DNA from: Candidatus Vesicomyosocius sp. SY067_SCS001
GTDB taxonomy: Bacteria; Pseudomonadota; Gammaproteobacteria; PS1; Pseudothioglobaceae
Assembly: GCF_014706615.1 (NCBI RefSeq)
Contig: NZ_CP054877.1
Span: 806,001 to 870,000 of the forward strand
Length of the DNA stretch: 64,000 nucleotides
Reading direction: 5' to 3'
The notes under the pieces were generated by a model. It did not search any database, was not told the origin of the DNA, and worked only from the letters and a program-made list of their open reading frames with translations. Numbering within the stretch: the stretch's first letter is position 1; each line of letters starts with the position of its first letter. Both the position numbers and the translations under genes were made by a program. This document shows positions 18,929 to 26,059 of the stretch, piece after piece.

Positions 18929-20131
18929 CTATCCTTTATGATATGAATCAGTCAAATCATCTTCCAAACTCTCCGGTAAGAATGCTAAAAATTTAACTAA
19001 AAATGTAACTATAATGATTGCTAAAGCAATACCACCAATACCAAGAAAAATTTCTGGTAATGAAACTAAATATTGAGCAATATCACCATAACCCTCTAAA
19101 ATCTCCTTGCCTGGAAATAACTCCATTGGATAAGCCTGACCCCCAATGATAATAACGTATAATTGGACAAACCCACCAATAATAATTAACACAGAAGACA
19201 AACCTAACATTGAACGATCTCCTTTAGTAAAAGGATGATAAATCAATACCATGGGAACAATACCACCCAAAATAATTTGACCATACCAAAATAATTTTGT
19301 ATAAATACCACCATCAAAAAGAATAAAGTTCTCAATACCAGCATTTTCTGCTAAGTACAAATTACCCAAATGATATACCGCTACAAAATACATAACTGCT
19401 GCAACAAATACACCTAAAAGATTTCTTAAACGATTTACTATAATATTTCCTAAAGGCCTGTTAGTCCACTTATAGCTCGCCATTAAAATCAGTATGAAAG
19501 ATGCCAACCCAAATGAAAAAGACATAATGATAAACATAGGAGCCATAATAACAGCATCATAAGCTTGTCTAGCAACTAAAAATCCAAAAATAGAGCCTGT
19601 TCCTGTAGTTAAAATTAAACGCCAACTAAAAGCAACTAAACCCACTTTATGACTAAACTTATCCATACGACGCTCAAACATCATCCATAAATAAATAGCA
19701 ACTACTACAAAGAAGCCATTATATAAAATAATATTCCAAGCAAAAATTGATTTAAAATTATATTCAGTCATTGCAACAATTAAACGATCTATACGACCTA
19801 AATCAAGAACTAATACCATTAACCCTCCGGCTAATAATGATAACGCAACTAAACCAGATAAACGTGATAATGATTTATATAGCTTTTTATTAAACACAGA
19901 AGAAATTGAAGCCACGTTTAATGCACCACTTGCTGCTATTATCAAGAATAAAGCAAAAACATGTGGTATACCCCATACAATACGATTATTCATACCAGTC
20001 ACAAAATGACCGTAGTGCTCTACATAGTATACACTGCCTAGTGCAGCCAAAATTAAAATCCAAAGTCCTGTAATTAAAGTATAAAAGCCTAGGCTTTTTC
20101 CTTCAATTTGCTCAAAACGAATATTACTCAT
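18929..20131 (-). CDS. dsrP: DsrP, NrfD-like membrane subunit of DsrMKJOP
   Basis: A 400-residue integral membrane protein with about ten hydrophobic helices, of the NrfD/PsrC family that exchanges electrons with the quinone pool. The first helix is near residues 15-37 and charged loops carry LGRIDR and WTNRPLGN. It is expected to pass electrons between quinone and the periplasmic ferredoxin DsrO and cytochrome DsrJ. It follows dsrO by 25 bases. Length agrees with described DsrP proteins (~400). Confidence 0.93.
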   Translation of the reverse strand: MSNIRFEQIEGKSLGFYTLITGLWILILAALGSVYYVEHYGHFVTGMNNRIVWGIPHVFALFLIIAASGALNVASISSVFNKKLYKSLSRLSGLVALSLLAGGLMVLVLDLGRIDRLIVAMTEYNFKSIFAWNIILYNGFFVVVAIYLWMMFERRMDKFSHKVGLVAFSWRLILTTGTGSIFGFLVARQAYDAVIMAPMFIIMSFSFGLASFILILMASYKWTNRPLGNIIVNRLRNLLGVFVAAVMYFVAVYHLGNLYLAENAGIENFILFDGGIYTKLFWYGQIILGGIVPMVLIYHPFTKGDRSMLGLSSVLIIIGGFVQLYVIIIGGQAYPMELFPGKEILEGYGDIAQYLVSLPEIFLGIGGIALAIIIVTFLVKFLAFLPESLEDDLTDSYHKG

Positions 20132-20156: not shown

Positions 20157-20888
20157 TTAAATACCACTATAGCGCACGCCAGTATTTAGATTAAGATCTG
20201 ACCTGATTTGTGAAGATTGAATTATTTTCAGGGTTTGGTTTATTTGGCTTGATTCATCATACAAATTACCAAAAATGACAGCTTCGCTATTAACACTTTC
20301 AACACAAGCAGGTGTTTCGCCTTTGTCAATCTTGTGTACACACATCGTACAAGCTTCAACTGTGCCTTTACCACGAGGCATATGTTCTTTCTGATTGTTT
20401 AATGTTTCATGTACAAATGAACGTGCATCATATGGACAAGCCATCATACAATAACGACAACCAATACATAAATGCTTATCTACCAACACAATCCCATCTT
20501 CACGTTTCATAGAAGCGTTGGTTGGACAAACATCAACACAAGGCGGTTCTTCACAATGCTGACACATAAGTGCAAGATTACTTACTTTATTAGTTGCTTT
20601 ATCTTTAACCTTTAGTTTTTTAATCCAGCCTGGTTTTTGACTAGCTGTTGAGTGTGTTTCAGTACCCCAACCTTGTTCTTGTTGACAAGCATTAACCATG
20701 CCATCAATATCAGTCTCAGTTAACTTATTGGTATCAATCAACAAGCCCCAACGCTTTTTATTGGTAACAGGTATTTCATTAACACTAGCAAATGTGGTAA
20801 GTGTAATACCACTAGCAACTATAGCAACCCCTGTCGTTGTTGCATTCATGATTTTAATAAAATCTCGACGATTTAATGTTTTATTCAT
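20157..20888 (-). CDS. dsrO: DsrO, periplasmic iron-sulfur protein of DsrMKJOP
   Basis: A 243-residue protein with a Tat signal (LNRRDFIKIM, then a hydrophobic stretch to about residue 35), so the folded iron-sulfur protein is exported. Cysteine motifs for four [4Fe-4S] clusters are visible: CQHCEEPPCVDVCP, CIGCRYCMMACP, CTMCVHKI and further cysteines (CVESVN). The frame is open 14 codons further upstream, but the twin-arginine start at 20888 overlaps the dsrJ stop as ATGA and is preceded by GGAAAG. Confidence 0.93.
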   Translation of the reverse strand: MNKTLNRRDFIKIMNATTTGVAIVASGITLTTFASVNEIPVTNKKRWGLLIDTNKLTETDIDGMVNACQQEQGWGTETHSTASQKPGWIKKLKVKDKATNKVSNLALMCQHCEEPPCVDVCPTNASMKREDGIVLVDKHLCIGCRYCMMACPYDARSFVHETLNNQKEHMPRGKGTVEACTMCVHKIDKGETPACVESVNSEAVIFGNLYDESSQINQTLKIIQSSQIRSDLNLNTGVRYSGI

Positions 20889-21268
20889 AATAAACTTTCC
20901 CTTGGAACCGTACGATGACAACTGAAACAATCAAAACTAACACCGACTTTCTTATGACAATCTGAACAAAATTGACCTTTCTTATCAACTGAGTAATATT
21001 GATTGTTTATCTTATTTTTATTAACATGGCACGAAACACAACCTTTTAAAGAATATTCATTTGTTCGTATACCTTTACGCAAGGTTTTATTACGTTTATG
21101 ACGTAATAATTCAGGATGCATTTTTCGAATAATTGAAGGACTTTCATGAAATACTTTACCGGATACTTTAATAGAACTAGCTTGTTCACCAAGATTAGCA
21201 TATTCGTCAATATACGCAAATACACTACTTACCAACAAACTTAAAAAAACAACCAAAAAACGATTCAT
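20885..21268 (-). CDS. dsrJ: DsrJ, triheme cytochrome c of DsrMKJOP
   Basis: A 127-residue protein with a Sec signal peptide or anchor (residues 1-19) and three CxxCH heme sites: Cys77-Cys80-His81, Cys101-Cys104-His105 and Cys114-Cys117-His118. The RHKRNKTLRKGIRTNEYSLK segment before the first heme is characteristic. There are only six cysteines, all in heme motifs. The A. vinosum protein has an additional cysteine reported as a distal ligand of one heme; no such residue exists here. Candidate distal ligands are His41, Met50, His51 and His57. Confidence 0.92.
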   Translation of the reverse strand: MNRFLVVFLSLLVSSVFAYIDEYANLGEQASSIKVSGKVFHESPSIIRKMHPELLRHKRNKTLRKGIRTNEYSLKGCVSCHVNKNKINNQYYSVDKKGQFCSDCHKKVGVSFDCFSCHRTVPRESLL

Positions 21269-21297: not shown

Positions 21298-23262
21298 TTA
21301 CTCACCAAGACCCATTTGTATATAACCAGTCGGACAAACATCAGCACAAATATGACAACCAATACACTTATTGTAATCAGTATCAACATACCTACCTAAC
21401 GTTGCTTTATCTTTCTTAACTTTAAATACCGCATCTTGAGGACAATACATCACACAGTTATCACATTCAAAACATAATCCACAAGACATACAACGGGATG
21501 CTTCTTTTTGCGCTTCCTTTTCAGTATAGCCAATTAAACGCTCATTAAAATTACCTAATACATTATCAACATCCACTAATTTGTGATTACGTTGATTCTG
21601 TTGTTCATGGTCAAAATGACCTAAGAATAATTCTGTATGTGGAATTATGGAAGCAAATGCCCGATCTTCATAATTATGCACGGCAAAATTAGCGCTATCT
21701 GTTGCAGTTGCAACGTCAGAACCTGACTTATAAGATTTAGGAGCAAGGTCCCATTCTTTTAATTTCTCCATTAAATCAAAATAACTAACGTCGACCTTAG
21801 GCCGAGTATGCTGCTCGGAACCTGAAAGATAATCACCGATACTTTCGGCAACAACTGATGCTTGACCAATAGCAGTTGTCAATAAGTGCGGACGAATCAC
21901 ATCACCACAAACAAAGAAACCTGGCTTATTAGGCACTTGATAATTCTTATCTGCGTCAATAAATCCATGCTTATTAAAGAAAGAAATATCTATACCTTCA
22001 GAATCAACACCTTGACCAATTGCAGAAACAATTAGTTCACACTCAATGTCAAACTCAGAACCTTTAATTGGGGTACTACCATCCTCTTCTAAACGAATCA
22101 TGCGTAATGCAGTTGCACGACCATCTTTTCCTGTAATTACTTCAACAGGTTGTAATTGACCTTGAATTTCAACACCTTCACGAGTTGCATCATCAATTTC
22201 TTCTTGTGCTGCCGGCATATTTACAACAGTAGAACGTGTTGTTAATAATACATCTGCACCTAAGCGCTTAGAGGTATCAACCACATCATGTGTTGTATCA
22301 CTAAAAATAATATGTTCAGGACGATCTTTCTCAGCAGCATTATTAATATTACCCAAACGACGTGCGACTGATACAACATCAATAGATGTATCACCCCCAC
22401 CAATACAAATTACTTTACCTGTAATATGCCTTAAACGACCTTGATTATACGCTTCAAGAAAAGCAATACCAGAAACACAATTTGTTGCTTTACCTCCTGG
22501 TACAGGCAATGTACGACCACTCATAGCACCTATCGCAAATAAAACTGCATCAAACTTTTTCTCTAATTCATCAATAGTAATATCAATACCAACTTTGGTA
22601 TTCATTCTAGTTTCAACACCTGTATTGATAATACGGTCAATCTCATAAGATAACACATCACGGGGCACACGATAATCAGGAATTCCGTACATCATCATTC
22701 CACCTAGTTGATTGTATTTTTCAAATATAGTTACGCTATGACCTTGACGACGTAATTTAAGTGCTGTTGTTAAGCCACCACAACCACCACCAATAATAGC
22801 CACTTTTTTACCCGTGTCTTTAGCATTAATTGTAAATGTATAACCCTCAACTTTTGCATTATCACCAATAAACTGTTCAACCGCATTAATACCAACTGTA
22901 TTCTCAACTTCATTACGATTACAACCATCCTCACAAGGTGCTGGACAAACACGACCCATTATTGATGGAAATGGATTTGAATCTGTAGATCTTTGAAATG
23001 CATACTCTTGCCAAGATAGTTCACCAGAAGGCTTCTCCATACCACGAACAATATCTAACCATCCACGAACATTATGTCCTGAAGGGCACGAACCTTGACA
23101 AGGTGGTGTTTGGGTAACATAAGTAGGACACTTATGAGAAGTATCTTCTTTAAAAATCTTTTGACTCCATGGTACTGTTTTTTGCTCATCACCATCATTC
23201 GTATACAATCTAAATGTATGGTTATCGCTTTTAGTTGGCATACCATACGGATTCTTCTGCAT
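21298..23262 (-). CDS. dsrL: DsrL, iron-sulfur flavoprotein NAD(P)H:acceptor oxidoreductase
   Basis: A 654-residue homologue of the glutamate synthase small subunit with added ferredoxin domain. The N-terminal cluster cysteines are in CPSGHNVRGW and GRVCPAPCEDGCNR; an FAD Rossmann motif (GGGCGGLTTAL, ~155), an NAD(P) motif (GGGDTSIDV, ~290), and a C-terminal pair of [4Fe-4S] motifs (CMSCGLCFECDNC and CIGCHICADVCP) follow. In sulfur oxidisers DsrL takes electrons from DsrAB to NAD(P)+ . It lies between dsrK and dsrJ, its standard place in the oxidative cluster. Confidence 0.95.
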   Translation of the reverse strand: MQKNPYGMPTKSDNHTFRLYTNDGDEQKTVPWSQKIFKEDTSHKCPTYVTQTPPCQGSCPSGHNVRGWLDIVRGMEKPSGELSWQEYAFQRSTDSNPFPSIMGRVCPAPCEDGCNRNEVENTVGINAVEQFIGDNAKVEGYTFTINAKDTGKKVAIIGGGCGGLTTALKLRRQGHSVTIFEKYNQLGGMMMYGIPDYRVPRDVLSYEIDRIINTGVETRMNTKVGIDITIDELEKKFDAVLFAIGAMSGRTLPVPGGKATNCVSGIAFLEAYNQGRLRHITGKVICIGGGDTSIDVVSVARRLGNINNAAEKDRPEHIIFSDTTHDVVDTSKRLGADVLLTTRSTVVNMPAAQEEIDDATREGVEIQGQLQPVEVITGKDGRATALRMIRLEEDGSTPIKGSEFDIECELIVSAIGQGVDSEGIDISFFNKHGFIDADKNYQVPNKPGFFVCGDVIRPHLLTTAIGQASVVAESIGDYLSGSEQHTRPKVDVSYFDLMEKLKEWDLAPKSYKSGSDVATATDSANFAVHNYEDRAFASIIPHTELFLGHFDHEQQNQRNHKLVDVDNVLGNFNERLIGYTEKEAQKEASRCMSCGLCFECDNCVMYCPQDAVFKVKKDKATLGRYVDTDYNKCIGCHICADVCPTGYIQMGLGE

Positions 23263-23317: not shown

Positions 23318-24883
23318 TCAGTCAACTTCTGATTTATCCTCCTGAACTTCTATTTTTCGCTTATCCATAATAATCGCCTCACTCACTAATTGATGAACAC
23401 TCACAATCATATATGGATCAAAATCAAATTTAGGAAGCACCTTAGAAAACTGCGACTTACAGATAGCACAAATAGCAGCTAATGTATTCACGCCATTGTC
23501 TTTTTCAACTGTTTTCAGTGCTTGCATTCTTGGCATTGCACCTTTTACACGAATTTCCATTAAATCGTCTGTTAGCAAACCTCCTCCACCACCACAACAA
23601 AAAGTTGACTCTTTAATAGTGCTACGCTCCATATCAACATAATTATTACATACAGATTTAATAACTTCACGTGGCAAAATAAATTGACCACCTAAAATAC
23701 CGCCCATATTGGTTGCGCGTGCAACATTACACGAATCATGGAAAGTAACTGTACGATCATCATTAGCAGACTTATCAAATACTAACTTACCTCTTTGAAT
23801 TAAATCATGAGTATATTCAATAATATGTTGTGGTTGAGGATAACGATGATCTAATTGATCTTGTAATTTTTGACTAAATTCATCAGCAGCACCCACACCT
23901 ACACCCGATAAAGTATTCCAAAAACTATAAGCAACACGCCAAGCATGTCCACACTCACCTACCATAACCCGGGACACTTCTAAATCAAGAGCTGCTTTAC
24001 GTATTCGTAAAGCAGCTTTACGCATAACATCATAAGAACCAATAAACATACCGAAGTTAGCCCCTTCAGAAGCATATGAACTTAACGTCCAACTCACTCC
24101 ATCCTGATGGAATACCTTACCATAACCAATTAACCCATCAATATGAGGTTCAGCAAAAAAATCTGCTGATGGAGTAATTAATAAAATTTCAGCGCCTTTT
24201 TGGTCCAATGGATATTTAACAGCAATTCCTCCTGTCTCTTCTTCAATTTCTTCCTCAAGATCAAGCAATGTATCACGCAAAGCTGGTTCAGGCAAACCTA
24301 AGTTATTACCAATTGTTAAAGCCTTACCTAAGATTTGATTACAGTATTTTTGACCTATACCAACCACATCAAGAACCTCACGAGCTGCCATTGAAATTTC
24401 AGCTGTATCAATACCGTATGGACAGAATACTGAACAACGACGACACTGTGAACATTGATGAAAATAGTTATACCAATCATCCAACATATCATTGTCTAAT
24501 TCCTTAGCACCTACCAACTTAGGGAAATATTTACCTGCAAAAGTAAAATAGCGACGATACACGCTTCTAAACAAATCTTGACGTGCAACCGGCATATTTT
24601 TCGGATCTGAAGAACCTAAAAAGTAATGACACTTATCAGTGCAAGCACCACATTTAACACATGAATCTAAAAATACTTGCACGGAGCGATATTTAGACTT
24701 AATCTCACCTATTTTATCAATAGCAACTTTCTGCCAATTGTCTACTTTTTCACCAGGAAATCCTAATGGATTTTGAAATTCTTGTGCAGATTTAAATGGT
24801 CCTTCACCATCCATAACACCTTCTTTTAACTTAGGAGTTTCAAGATAAGTAGGTAATGCCGGAATGTCAAATTCTTTTACCAT
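23318..24883 (-). CDS. dsrK: DsrK, HdrD-like iron-sulfur subunit of DsrMKJOP
   Basis: A 521-residue cytoplasmic protein related to heterodisulfide reductase HdrD, the likely site where DsrC trisulfide or disulfide is reduced or oxidised. Two [4Fe-4S] motifs are visible (CVKCGACTDKCHY, ~78; CSQCRRCSVFCP, ~150), then CCG-domain cysteines including DSCNVAR and FCCGGGGGLL (~440) for the special catalytic cluster. An ATG at 24892 is possible; the one at 24883 has AAGGA eight bases upstream. Both overlap or abut the dsrM stop. Confidence 0.94.
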   Translation of the reverse strand: MVKEFDIPALPTYLETPKLKEGVMDGEGPFKSAQEFQNPLGFPGEKVDNWQKVAIDKIGEIKSKYRSVQVFLDSCVKCGACTDKCHYFLGSSDPKNMPVARQDLFRSVYRRYFTFAGKYFPKLVGAKELDNDMLDDWYNYFHQCSQCRRCSVFCPYGIDTAEISMAAREVLDVVGIGQKYCNQILGKALTIGNNLGLPEPALRDTLLDLEEEIEEETGGIAVKYPLDQKGAEILLITPSADFFAEPHIDGLIGYGKVFHQDGVSWTLSSYASEGANFGMFIGSYDVMRKAALRIRKAALDLEVSRVMVGECGHAWRVAYSFWNTLSGVGVGAADEFSQKLQDQLDHRYPQPQHIIEYTHDLIQRGKLVFDKSANDDRTVTFHDSCNVARATNMGGILGGQFILPREVIKSVCNNYVDMERSTIKESTFCCGGGGGLLTDDLMEIRVKGAMPRMQALKTVEKDNGVNTLAAICAICKSQFSKVLPKFDFDPYMIVSVHQLVSEAIIMDKRKIEVQEDKSEVD

Positions 24884-24884
24884 A

Positions 24885-25658
24885 CTATTCATCCTTACCT
24901 AAAATTTGTTTTAATCGTATTGCATGTTCTTTTTCTTGTTTAAGTGCCCAAGGTGCAATATGGCGCTTTGAACGAGCATTATCCACCTGATTGAGTGTTG
25001 GACTAAAAAAAATACCTGGCATATGTAATAATTTAGAAATTGGAAAAATTGCCATCAACACAAACACCAAAAAAATATGTATTAAAAAATATACTTCTGT
25101 TGGTAAATTTTTCCAATTAAAACTCACTAGCCCTGAGGCAAATTCCTTTACCATAATAATGTCTGTATGATTACTGGTAAATGTCATAATCATTCCACTT
25201 ATGCCAATAATAAGTAACATAATTAACATTAAATAATCACTCGGAGCTGAAATATAACGGATACGATCAACAAAAATACGACGTAGCATCAATCCAATAA
25301 GACCAATCACCATCACAAAAGCAGCGTATTTAAAAGATTGAGTTAATAAAAAAATATCAGGTAAATCATAAGGCCAAAAATAACGTATATGACGAATTAA
25401 AATCAATAATAAACCAATATGAAATAACCAGCCAAACAACCAAATCCATTTATTTGATCTGAATAAACTTTCAAATAAAACTATTTCACGAATTATACGC
25501 ATAACTACACCTTTTTGTGTTAACGGAGTTGGTGCAATAGGAATTTTAAGAGGAGCTGGAGTTATCCCAAATTGATATATTTTTTTCACCATCCCAATAA
25601 AAAATACAATTAATGAAATATAAAATAAAGCGGTAAAAAAAATGCTTATTACAGACAT
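24885..25658 (-). CDS. dsrM: DsrM, cytochrome b membrane subunit of DsrMKJOP
   Basis: A 257-residue NarI-like protein with five to six hydrophobic helices and histidines suited to bind two b hemes (for example LFHIGLLLILIRHIRYF). It connects the quinone pool to DsrK. The open frame runs 40 codons further upstream, but those codons overlap a hairpin and have poor protein character. The ATG at 25658 follows a GAGAG Shine-Dalgarno-like sequence and gives the expected membrane N-terminus MSVISIFFTALFY. Confidence 0.92.
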   Translation of the reverse strand: MSVISIFFTALFYISLIVFFIGMVKKIYQFGITPAPLKIPIAPTPLTQKGVVMRIIREIVLFESLFRSNKWIWLFGWLFHIGLLLILIRHIRYFWPYDLPDIFLLTQSFKYAAFVMVIGLIGLMLRRIFVDRIRYISAPSDYLMLIMLLIIGISGMIMTFTSNHTDIIMVKEFASGLVSFNWKNLPTEVYFLIHIFLVFVLMAIFPISKLLHMPGIFFSPTLNQVDNARSKRHIAPWALKQEKEHAIRLKQILGKDE

Positions 25659-25688
25659 GTTGCTCTCAAATTCAATGAATAAAATATC

Positions 25689-25718
25689 AAAAAAACATTC
25701 ACAAAAGCAAATGTTTTT
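25689..25718 (-). terminator. Hairpin with T-run between dsrC and dsrM (attenuator-like)
   Basis: Read on the transcribed minus strand, AAAAACATT (25718-25710) pairs with AATGTTTTT (25699-25691) around a ten-base loop, and two more T residues follow, giving a seven-T run. It starts 18 bases after the dsrC stop, inside the only 77-base gap of that part of the operon. The shape is that of a weak Rho-independent terminator; partial read-through would leave dsrC mRNA more abundant than dsrMKLJOPNR mRNA. Confidence 0.5.
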
Positions 25719-25735
25719 ATTACGTTTGTATTGAC

Positions 25736-26059
25736 TTAAATACAACCAGTTGGTTTTGGCAATCCAGCAAAACGACAACCTTGTTTACCAGGGCCATATG
25801 GAAATAAAGAATATAAATACTTAGAGTTACCTTTATCTTTACCCATTCTTTTAGCAATCGCTTTAGTTAATACACGTACTGCAGGTGCAATTTGATACTC
25901 TTCAAAATATTCACGTAAAAAATTAATCACATCCCAATGTTCATTACTTAATAAAACATCATCATCTTTTGCCATTTGTTCAGCAATTTCCTTACTCCAA
26001 TCACCTAGATCTACCAAGAAACCTTCTTCATCTACTTCTGCGCCTAAAATATCAGCCAT
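25736..26059 (-). CDS. dsrC: DsrC, sulfur carrier protein of sulfite reductase
   Basis: A 107-residue protein carrying sulfur between DsrEFH, DsrAB and the membrane complex. The flexible C-terminal arm has both redox cysteines, Cys95 and Cys106 in GKQGCRFAGLPKPTGCI, eleven residues apart, which defines true DsrC rather than TusE. The insertion DKGNSKYLYSLFPYGPGKQ is typical. The frame is open 13 codons further upstream, but MADILGAEVDEEGF at 26059 is the normal start, preceded by AGGAG. Confidence 0.96.
   Translation of the reverse strand: MADILGAEVDEEGFLVDLGDWSKEIAEQMAKDDDVLLSNEHWDVINFLREYFEEYQIAPAVRVLTKAIAKRMGKDKGNSKYLYSLFPYGPGKQGCRFAGLPKPTGCI

Follow-up and report, generated by a model that had tools for sequence, protein, structure and literature searches.

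The triheme cytochrome DsrJ of Allochromatium vinosum is described as carrying hemes with bis-His, His/Met and His/Cys ligation, which fits the set of residues conserved in those DsrJ proteins that have a cysteine outside their heme-binding motifs (Cys-type DsrJ, see below). What DsrJ does within the DsrMKJOP complex is not settled, and sulfur chemistry has been proposed to take place at its Cys-ligated heme. A His/Cys c-heme has been described for the A. vinosum protein (PMC9562282; PMC8833165), with several ligation states of the DsrJ heme (PMC9562282). In the C. jejuni enzyme TsdA, an engineered Cys-to-His variant (C138H) acquired a bis-His heme with an Em of about -100 mV, in the wild-type range, and was inactive in both directions (PMC6879331).

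Here we examine the dsr locus in a window of 64,000 nucleotides from Candidatus Vesicomyosocius sp. SY067_SCS001 (contig NZ_CP054877.1, positions 806,001 to 870,000). We consider it likely that the DsrJ encoded there is a working member of DsrMKJOP and that His41 has taken over from Cys as the distal ligand of one heme c.

A DsrJ without the distal cysteine in a complete dsr operon

The window contains a complete run of genes, dsrA-B-E-F-H-C-M-K-L-J-O-P-N-R, in which internal stops are absent (Table 1). The reading frame of dsrJ is intact and the gene lies directly upstream of dsrO; among the 208 DsrJ loci compared below, DsrO is encoded next in 204. Translation of the minus strand bore out the preliminary description of this DNA, according to which all six cysteines of DsrJ belong to the three CxxCH motifs, and residues 36-60 include His41, Met50, His51 and His57 and no Cys. 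The N-terminus looks, by eye, like a signal peptide, and the protein is the small exported polypeptide with three CxxCH heme c motifs by which DsrJ is recognized. It lacks the conserved Cys that would serve as distal ligand of a His/Cys heme, as well as the Cys thiolate on heme c that characterizes a type-4 heme-thiolate centre (PMC9562282). Since this Cys is common to DsrJ proteins but is not the feature that names them, we retain the name and class the protein as a ligand-swapped variant of DsrJ.

Table 1. Location of dsr genes and of relevant DsrJ and DsrO residues in the window.
Feature	Position	Strand	Description
dsrP	18929..20131	minus	NrfD-like membrane subunit; gene order
dsrO	20157..20888	minus	ferredoxin-type subunit with 243 residues counted from ATG; overlaps dsrJ by 4 nt; has 12 Cys in place of 16, for three [4Fe-4S]
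DsrO Val199	20292..20294	minus	takes the position of Cys 4 in motif IV; the lost cluster had this as its fourth ligand
DsrO Leu56, Ile61, Met64	20697..20723	minus	replace motif I Cys 1-3
dsrJ	20885..21268	minus	127 aa, triheme c-type cytochrome subunit of DsrMKJOP; NCBIfam DsrJ match; between dsrL and dsrO
Third CxxCH heme c motif of DsrJ	20915..20929	minus	residues 114-118
Second CxxCH heme c motif of DsrJ	20954..20968	minus	residues 101-105
First CxxCH heme c motif of DsrJ	21026..21040	minus	residues 77-81
His57 of DsrJ	21098..21100	minus	conserved without exception in both His-type clades and in 127/150 Cys-type proteins; may be the third distal ligand
His51 of DsrJ	21116..21118	minus	present in all 208 DsrJ, the sole His outside CxxCH of which this is true; may be a distal heme ligand
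Ile47 of DsrJ	21128..21130	minus	position of Met in 141/150 Cys-type proteins, where that Met is a candidate ligand
His41 (CAT) of DsrJ	21146..21148	minus	putative replacement ligand where an otherwise invariant Cys stands
dsrL	21298..23262	minus	gene order
dsrK	23318..24892	minus	gene order
dsrM	24885..25778	minus	gene order; 5' end uncertain

The window DsrJ scored 39.8 bits against the NCBIfam model NF038038, whose cut-off is 100 bits. This cut-off was passed by no genome of the window's family and one Cys-type DsrJ scored 66.9, so it seems to fit sulfate reducers only.

The cysteine column is otherwise invariant

We compared 208 DsrJ sequences from approximately 200 genomes, covering the window's family, its class, its phylum and one further family; duplicates and one sequence broken by N were left out, and the full sequences came from Pseudomonadota. 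Residues were numbered from a conserved Arg (Arg48 in the window), which is followed by a His three residues on. Among Cys-type proteins, one alignment column was Cys in 150 of 150 sequences, from 75 families and 107 genera, and was found at -8 in nearly all of them; its position suggests that it corresponds to Cys46 of A. vinosum. The objection that the Cys column might vary in most DsrJ proteins therefore fails. Within the window's family, the Cys was absent from all 45 full-length DsrJ, 44 of which contain a His at -7 or -8. In most members this is at -7, as for His41, one residue off the position of the Cys. His is otherwise rare in this stretch (around 1% of residues), and none of the 150 Cys-type proteins has it at -7 or -8. 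Chance and sequencing error are both ruled out, with the Cys lacking in all relatives from the family and present in all 150 Cys-type relatives.

The swap is not absolute in the window's family, because one member (L109) has Arg at the ligand place; it also carries His at -15 and Cys at both -19 and -24, and its sequence comes from a MAG that is 86% complete (G060). This protein possibly represents a third ligand arrangement, or else the MAG is poor.

Outside the CxxCH motifs, Cys(-8) and His(+3) are invariant in the 150 Cys-type sequences and Met(-1) is nearly so (141, or 94%). Both groups of His-type proteins, in the window's family and in a second family described below (f216), share instead three invariant or near-invariant His at -7/-8 (44/45 in the window's family), +3 and +9. 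Met(-1) is missing from all 45 proteins of the window's family and from nine of the 13 in the f216 His clade. Additionally, Met is entirely absent beyond the ligand place in two members of the window's genus, which makes a His/Met heme impossible within that part of the protein. Tabulating Met(-1) and His(+9) as mutually replacing ligands was uninformative. The sulfate-reducer model NF038038 penalizes loss of the Cys by 4.6-6.1 bits, of His(+3) by 4.7 and of Met(-1) by 3.9, and does not penalize that of His(+9); replacing the Cys is thus as costly as replacing the universal His.

His41 as a probable heme ligand

AlphaFold2 models, built without heme, contained a long helix carrying His(+3), at residues 44-65 in the window DsrJ and 24-44 in a Cys-type DsrJ (mean pLDDT 78 and 86). 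His41 stands three residues before this helix and Cys20 four, suggesting that His41 and the Cys occupy the same place. Foldseek searches with both models returned no match, and PDB searches by sequence with DsrJ, DsrK or DsrP found no structure of a Dsr complex.

Because three His are invariant or nearly so in both His clades and Met(-1) is mostly gone, we infer that His41 binds the heme iron and that the former His/Cys heme is now bis-His. Less surely, and with His51 and His57 as further ligands, all three hemes of DsrJ may be bis-His. This agrees with the earlier proposal that a heme left without its Cys would need another ligand, given that the Cys is truly absent from a column that is otherwise invariant.

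Alternatively, the former Cys heme could lack a strong distal ligand, being high-spin or five-coordinate, or could take Met50, Lys38 or a residue of a different subunit as its ligand, with His41 conserved for some other reason. We regard this as unlikely. The one-residue offset of the His in most members would agree with it, as would the presence of Lys38 in 41 of the 45 family proteins and of Met50 in 43, and the Arg of L109; however, f216 independently has His in the exact Cys column, the two members without Met50 have no other Met left there, and the residues flanking His41 vary among family members while His41 stays.

A probably separate swap in a second family

The replacement of Cys by His has a counterpart in f216, which belongs to the same phylum as the window's family and to another class, and is probably Rhodobacteraceae, judging from its many genera. 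His occupies exactly the Cys column in 13 of its 14 DsrJ (L217 and L238-L249), in a sequence context unlike that of the window's family; in L217, dsrJ lies within a dsrL-J-O operon. The fourteenth member (L237) keeps the Cys and branches beside the His-type members. In a phylogeny of DsrO, for which DsrJ was not used, both His groups were clades nested among Cys types, requiring two changes, and an AU test on 42 rows rejected a single His clade (p-AU 0.0255). Two independent Cys-to-His swaps, each taking two base changes (TGY to CAY), are therefore favoured, the rejection of a single origin being moderate.

As the swap would have arisen separately in two families, a natural test of the necessity of the Cys has in effect already been run. 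That it arose twice, and that the operon was not lost, could also mean that the Cys never functioned as a ligand, is conserved for structural reasons and can be replaced without redox consequence, a view to which the several ligation states of the DsrJ heme (PMC9562282) lend some weight. We nevertheless consider this very improbable: the Cys is invariant in 150 sequences, a His/Cys c-heme is described for A. vinosum DsrJ, and both replacements are another heme-ligating residue.

dsrJ is retained under purifying selection

The dsrJ gene is subject to purifying selection, with a median dN/dS of 0.16 across 12 genomes of the window's genus. Every complete copy found in the window's family is intact, and, fragmentary MAGs excepted, dsrJ accompanies an intact dsrA everywhere. 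A pseudogene was also rejected as an explanation.

The host genome of the window is only 1.03 Mb and its DsrO has lost a cluster too (see below), as would be expected if selection were relaxed and DsrJ were decaying in reduced symbiont genomes, with the loss of the Cys as a symptom. This explanation is already contradicted and hardly credible: the whole family shows the trait, even where genomes reach 2.4-2.8 Mb, dN/dS is low (~0.16) and all three CxxCH motifs are invariant, whereas the 1.0-1.1 Mb genomes of families f132 and f37 keep the Cys. Genome reduction was thus rejected as the cause, because the Cys persists in small genomes elsewhere and is missing from large genomes of the window's family.

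Ruthia magnifica was said in 2008 to lack dsrJ (PMC2642828). We found intact dsrJ in all 12 genomes searched from genus g1, including L033 and L034, and in two MAGs named as Ca. Ruthia; the gene, being short, may therefore have been overlooked at that time. Unlike its sister genera, genus g5 of the same family yielded neither a dsrJ match nor a dsrA above the cut-off in any of its 29 genomes (G005-G033). A scan of viral contigs and a plasmid search yielded no DsrJ.

The partner DsrO lacks the cysteines of one iron-sulfur cluster

DsrO is clearly related to PsrB. The window protein retains the last Cys of motif I and the first three of motif IV, and its lost cysteines (Table 1) match a single cluster, which we take to be FS1 of NarH-type ferredoxins. 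FS1 is the cluster near the catalytic subunit (PMC5123574, PMC8387239) and can be removed from NarH with the other clusters unaffected. The same four cysteines are missing from all 44 readable DsrO of the window's family. Three or four of them are also lost in f69, f91 and L200, all with the DsrJ Cys kept, and the f216 His clade has a DsrO with all 16. Thus, in f69, DsrJ keeps its Cys while DsrO is without the same cluster; in three of its members (L175, L185 and L187), DsrJ N-termini contain LVGC-like lipobox sequences, and DsrJ may be a lipoprotein there.

In a tree built without the lost-Cys columns, the sister of the window's family was f93 (support 92/90). Because f93 has both the DsrJ Cys and a full DsrO, the DsrJ swap and the DsrO cluster loss both map to the branch at the base of the window's family. 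It is conceivable, although we hold it doubtful, that the periplasmic arm of DsrMKJOP was rebuilt there as a unit, with DsrJ as a triheme wire of bis-His hemes only, free of cysteine chemistry and of action on sulfur compounds, DsrO without the facing cluster, and electron entry or exit at DsrO unlike that of every described DsrMKJOP.

Proposed function and significance

We propose that electrons would pass through the window DsrJ without cysteine-based sulfur chemistry, DsrJ most likely being a plain electron-transfer cytochrome, and that the electron path between DsrJ and DsrO would have been rebuilt on one ancestral branch. By analogy with TsdA, electron transfer would survive the swap and thiolate chemistry would be lost. 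The preliminary description had predicted a changed redox potential of the heme, which is less certain than the need for another ligand; loss of cysteine chemistry appears the better-supported prediction, because the TsdA heme kept its range of potential upon Cys-to-His replacement and the enzyme lost activity. The same genome contains soxA, and thiosulfate handling therefore need not involve DsrJ.

Two lineages with His for Cys, and with the gene under selection, suggest that their reverse-Dsr sulfur oxidation can do without chemistry at a Cys-ligated heme, and the role of the Cys is thus directly testable by residue swaps both ways. The window's family, which was taken to be Thioglobaceae and would comprise SUP05-type bacteria and mussel and clam symbionts, appears ecologically important. 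An earlier mention of the swap, or of DsrJ together with Cys46, was not found in the literature searched, a body that lay apart from the 2010 paper on A. vinosum DsrJ.

Comparison with known systems

The window DsrJ resembles that of A. vinosum and other Cys-type proteins in its length, signal peptide, three CxxCH motifs, His(+3) and placement between dsrL and dsrO. It differs from them in having His for the invariant Cys and, in its family, Ile or Gln for Met(-1), and in being paired with a DsrO that has four Cys fewer (12, against 16). With the His-type DsrJ of f216 it shares the His for Cys and the invariant His(+3) and His(+9); unlike in the window, the f216 His stands exactly in the Cys column and is followed by P/A-E-G-N, its DsrO has 16 Cys, and it occupies a separate branch of the DsrO tree. 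TsdA and SoxA, with a 'type-4' heme-thiolate, exemplify the His/Cys c-heme that Cys-type DsrJ is proposed to carry, and TsdA C138H the bis-His state predicted here. However, they are unrelated diheme enzymes, and the TsdA variant is man-made and inactive, whereas that of the window DsrJ is natural and has been retained.
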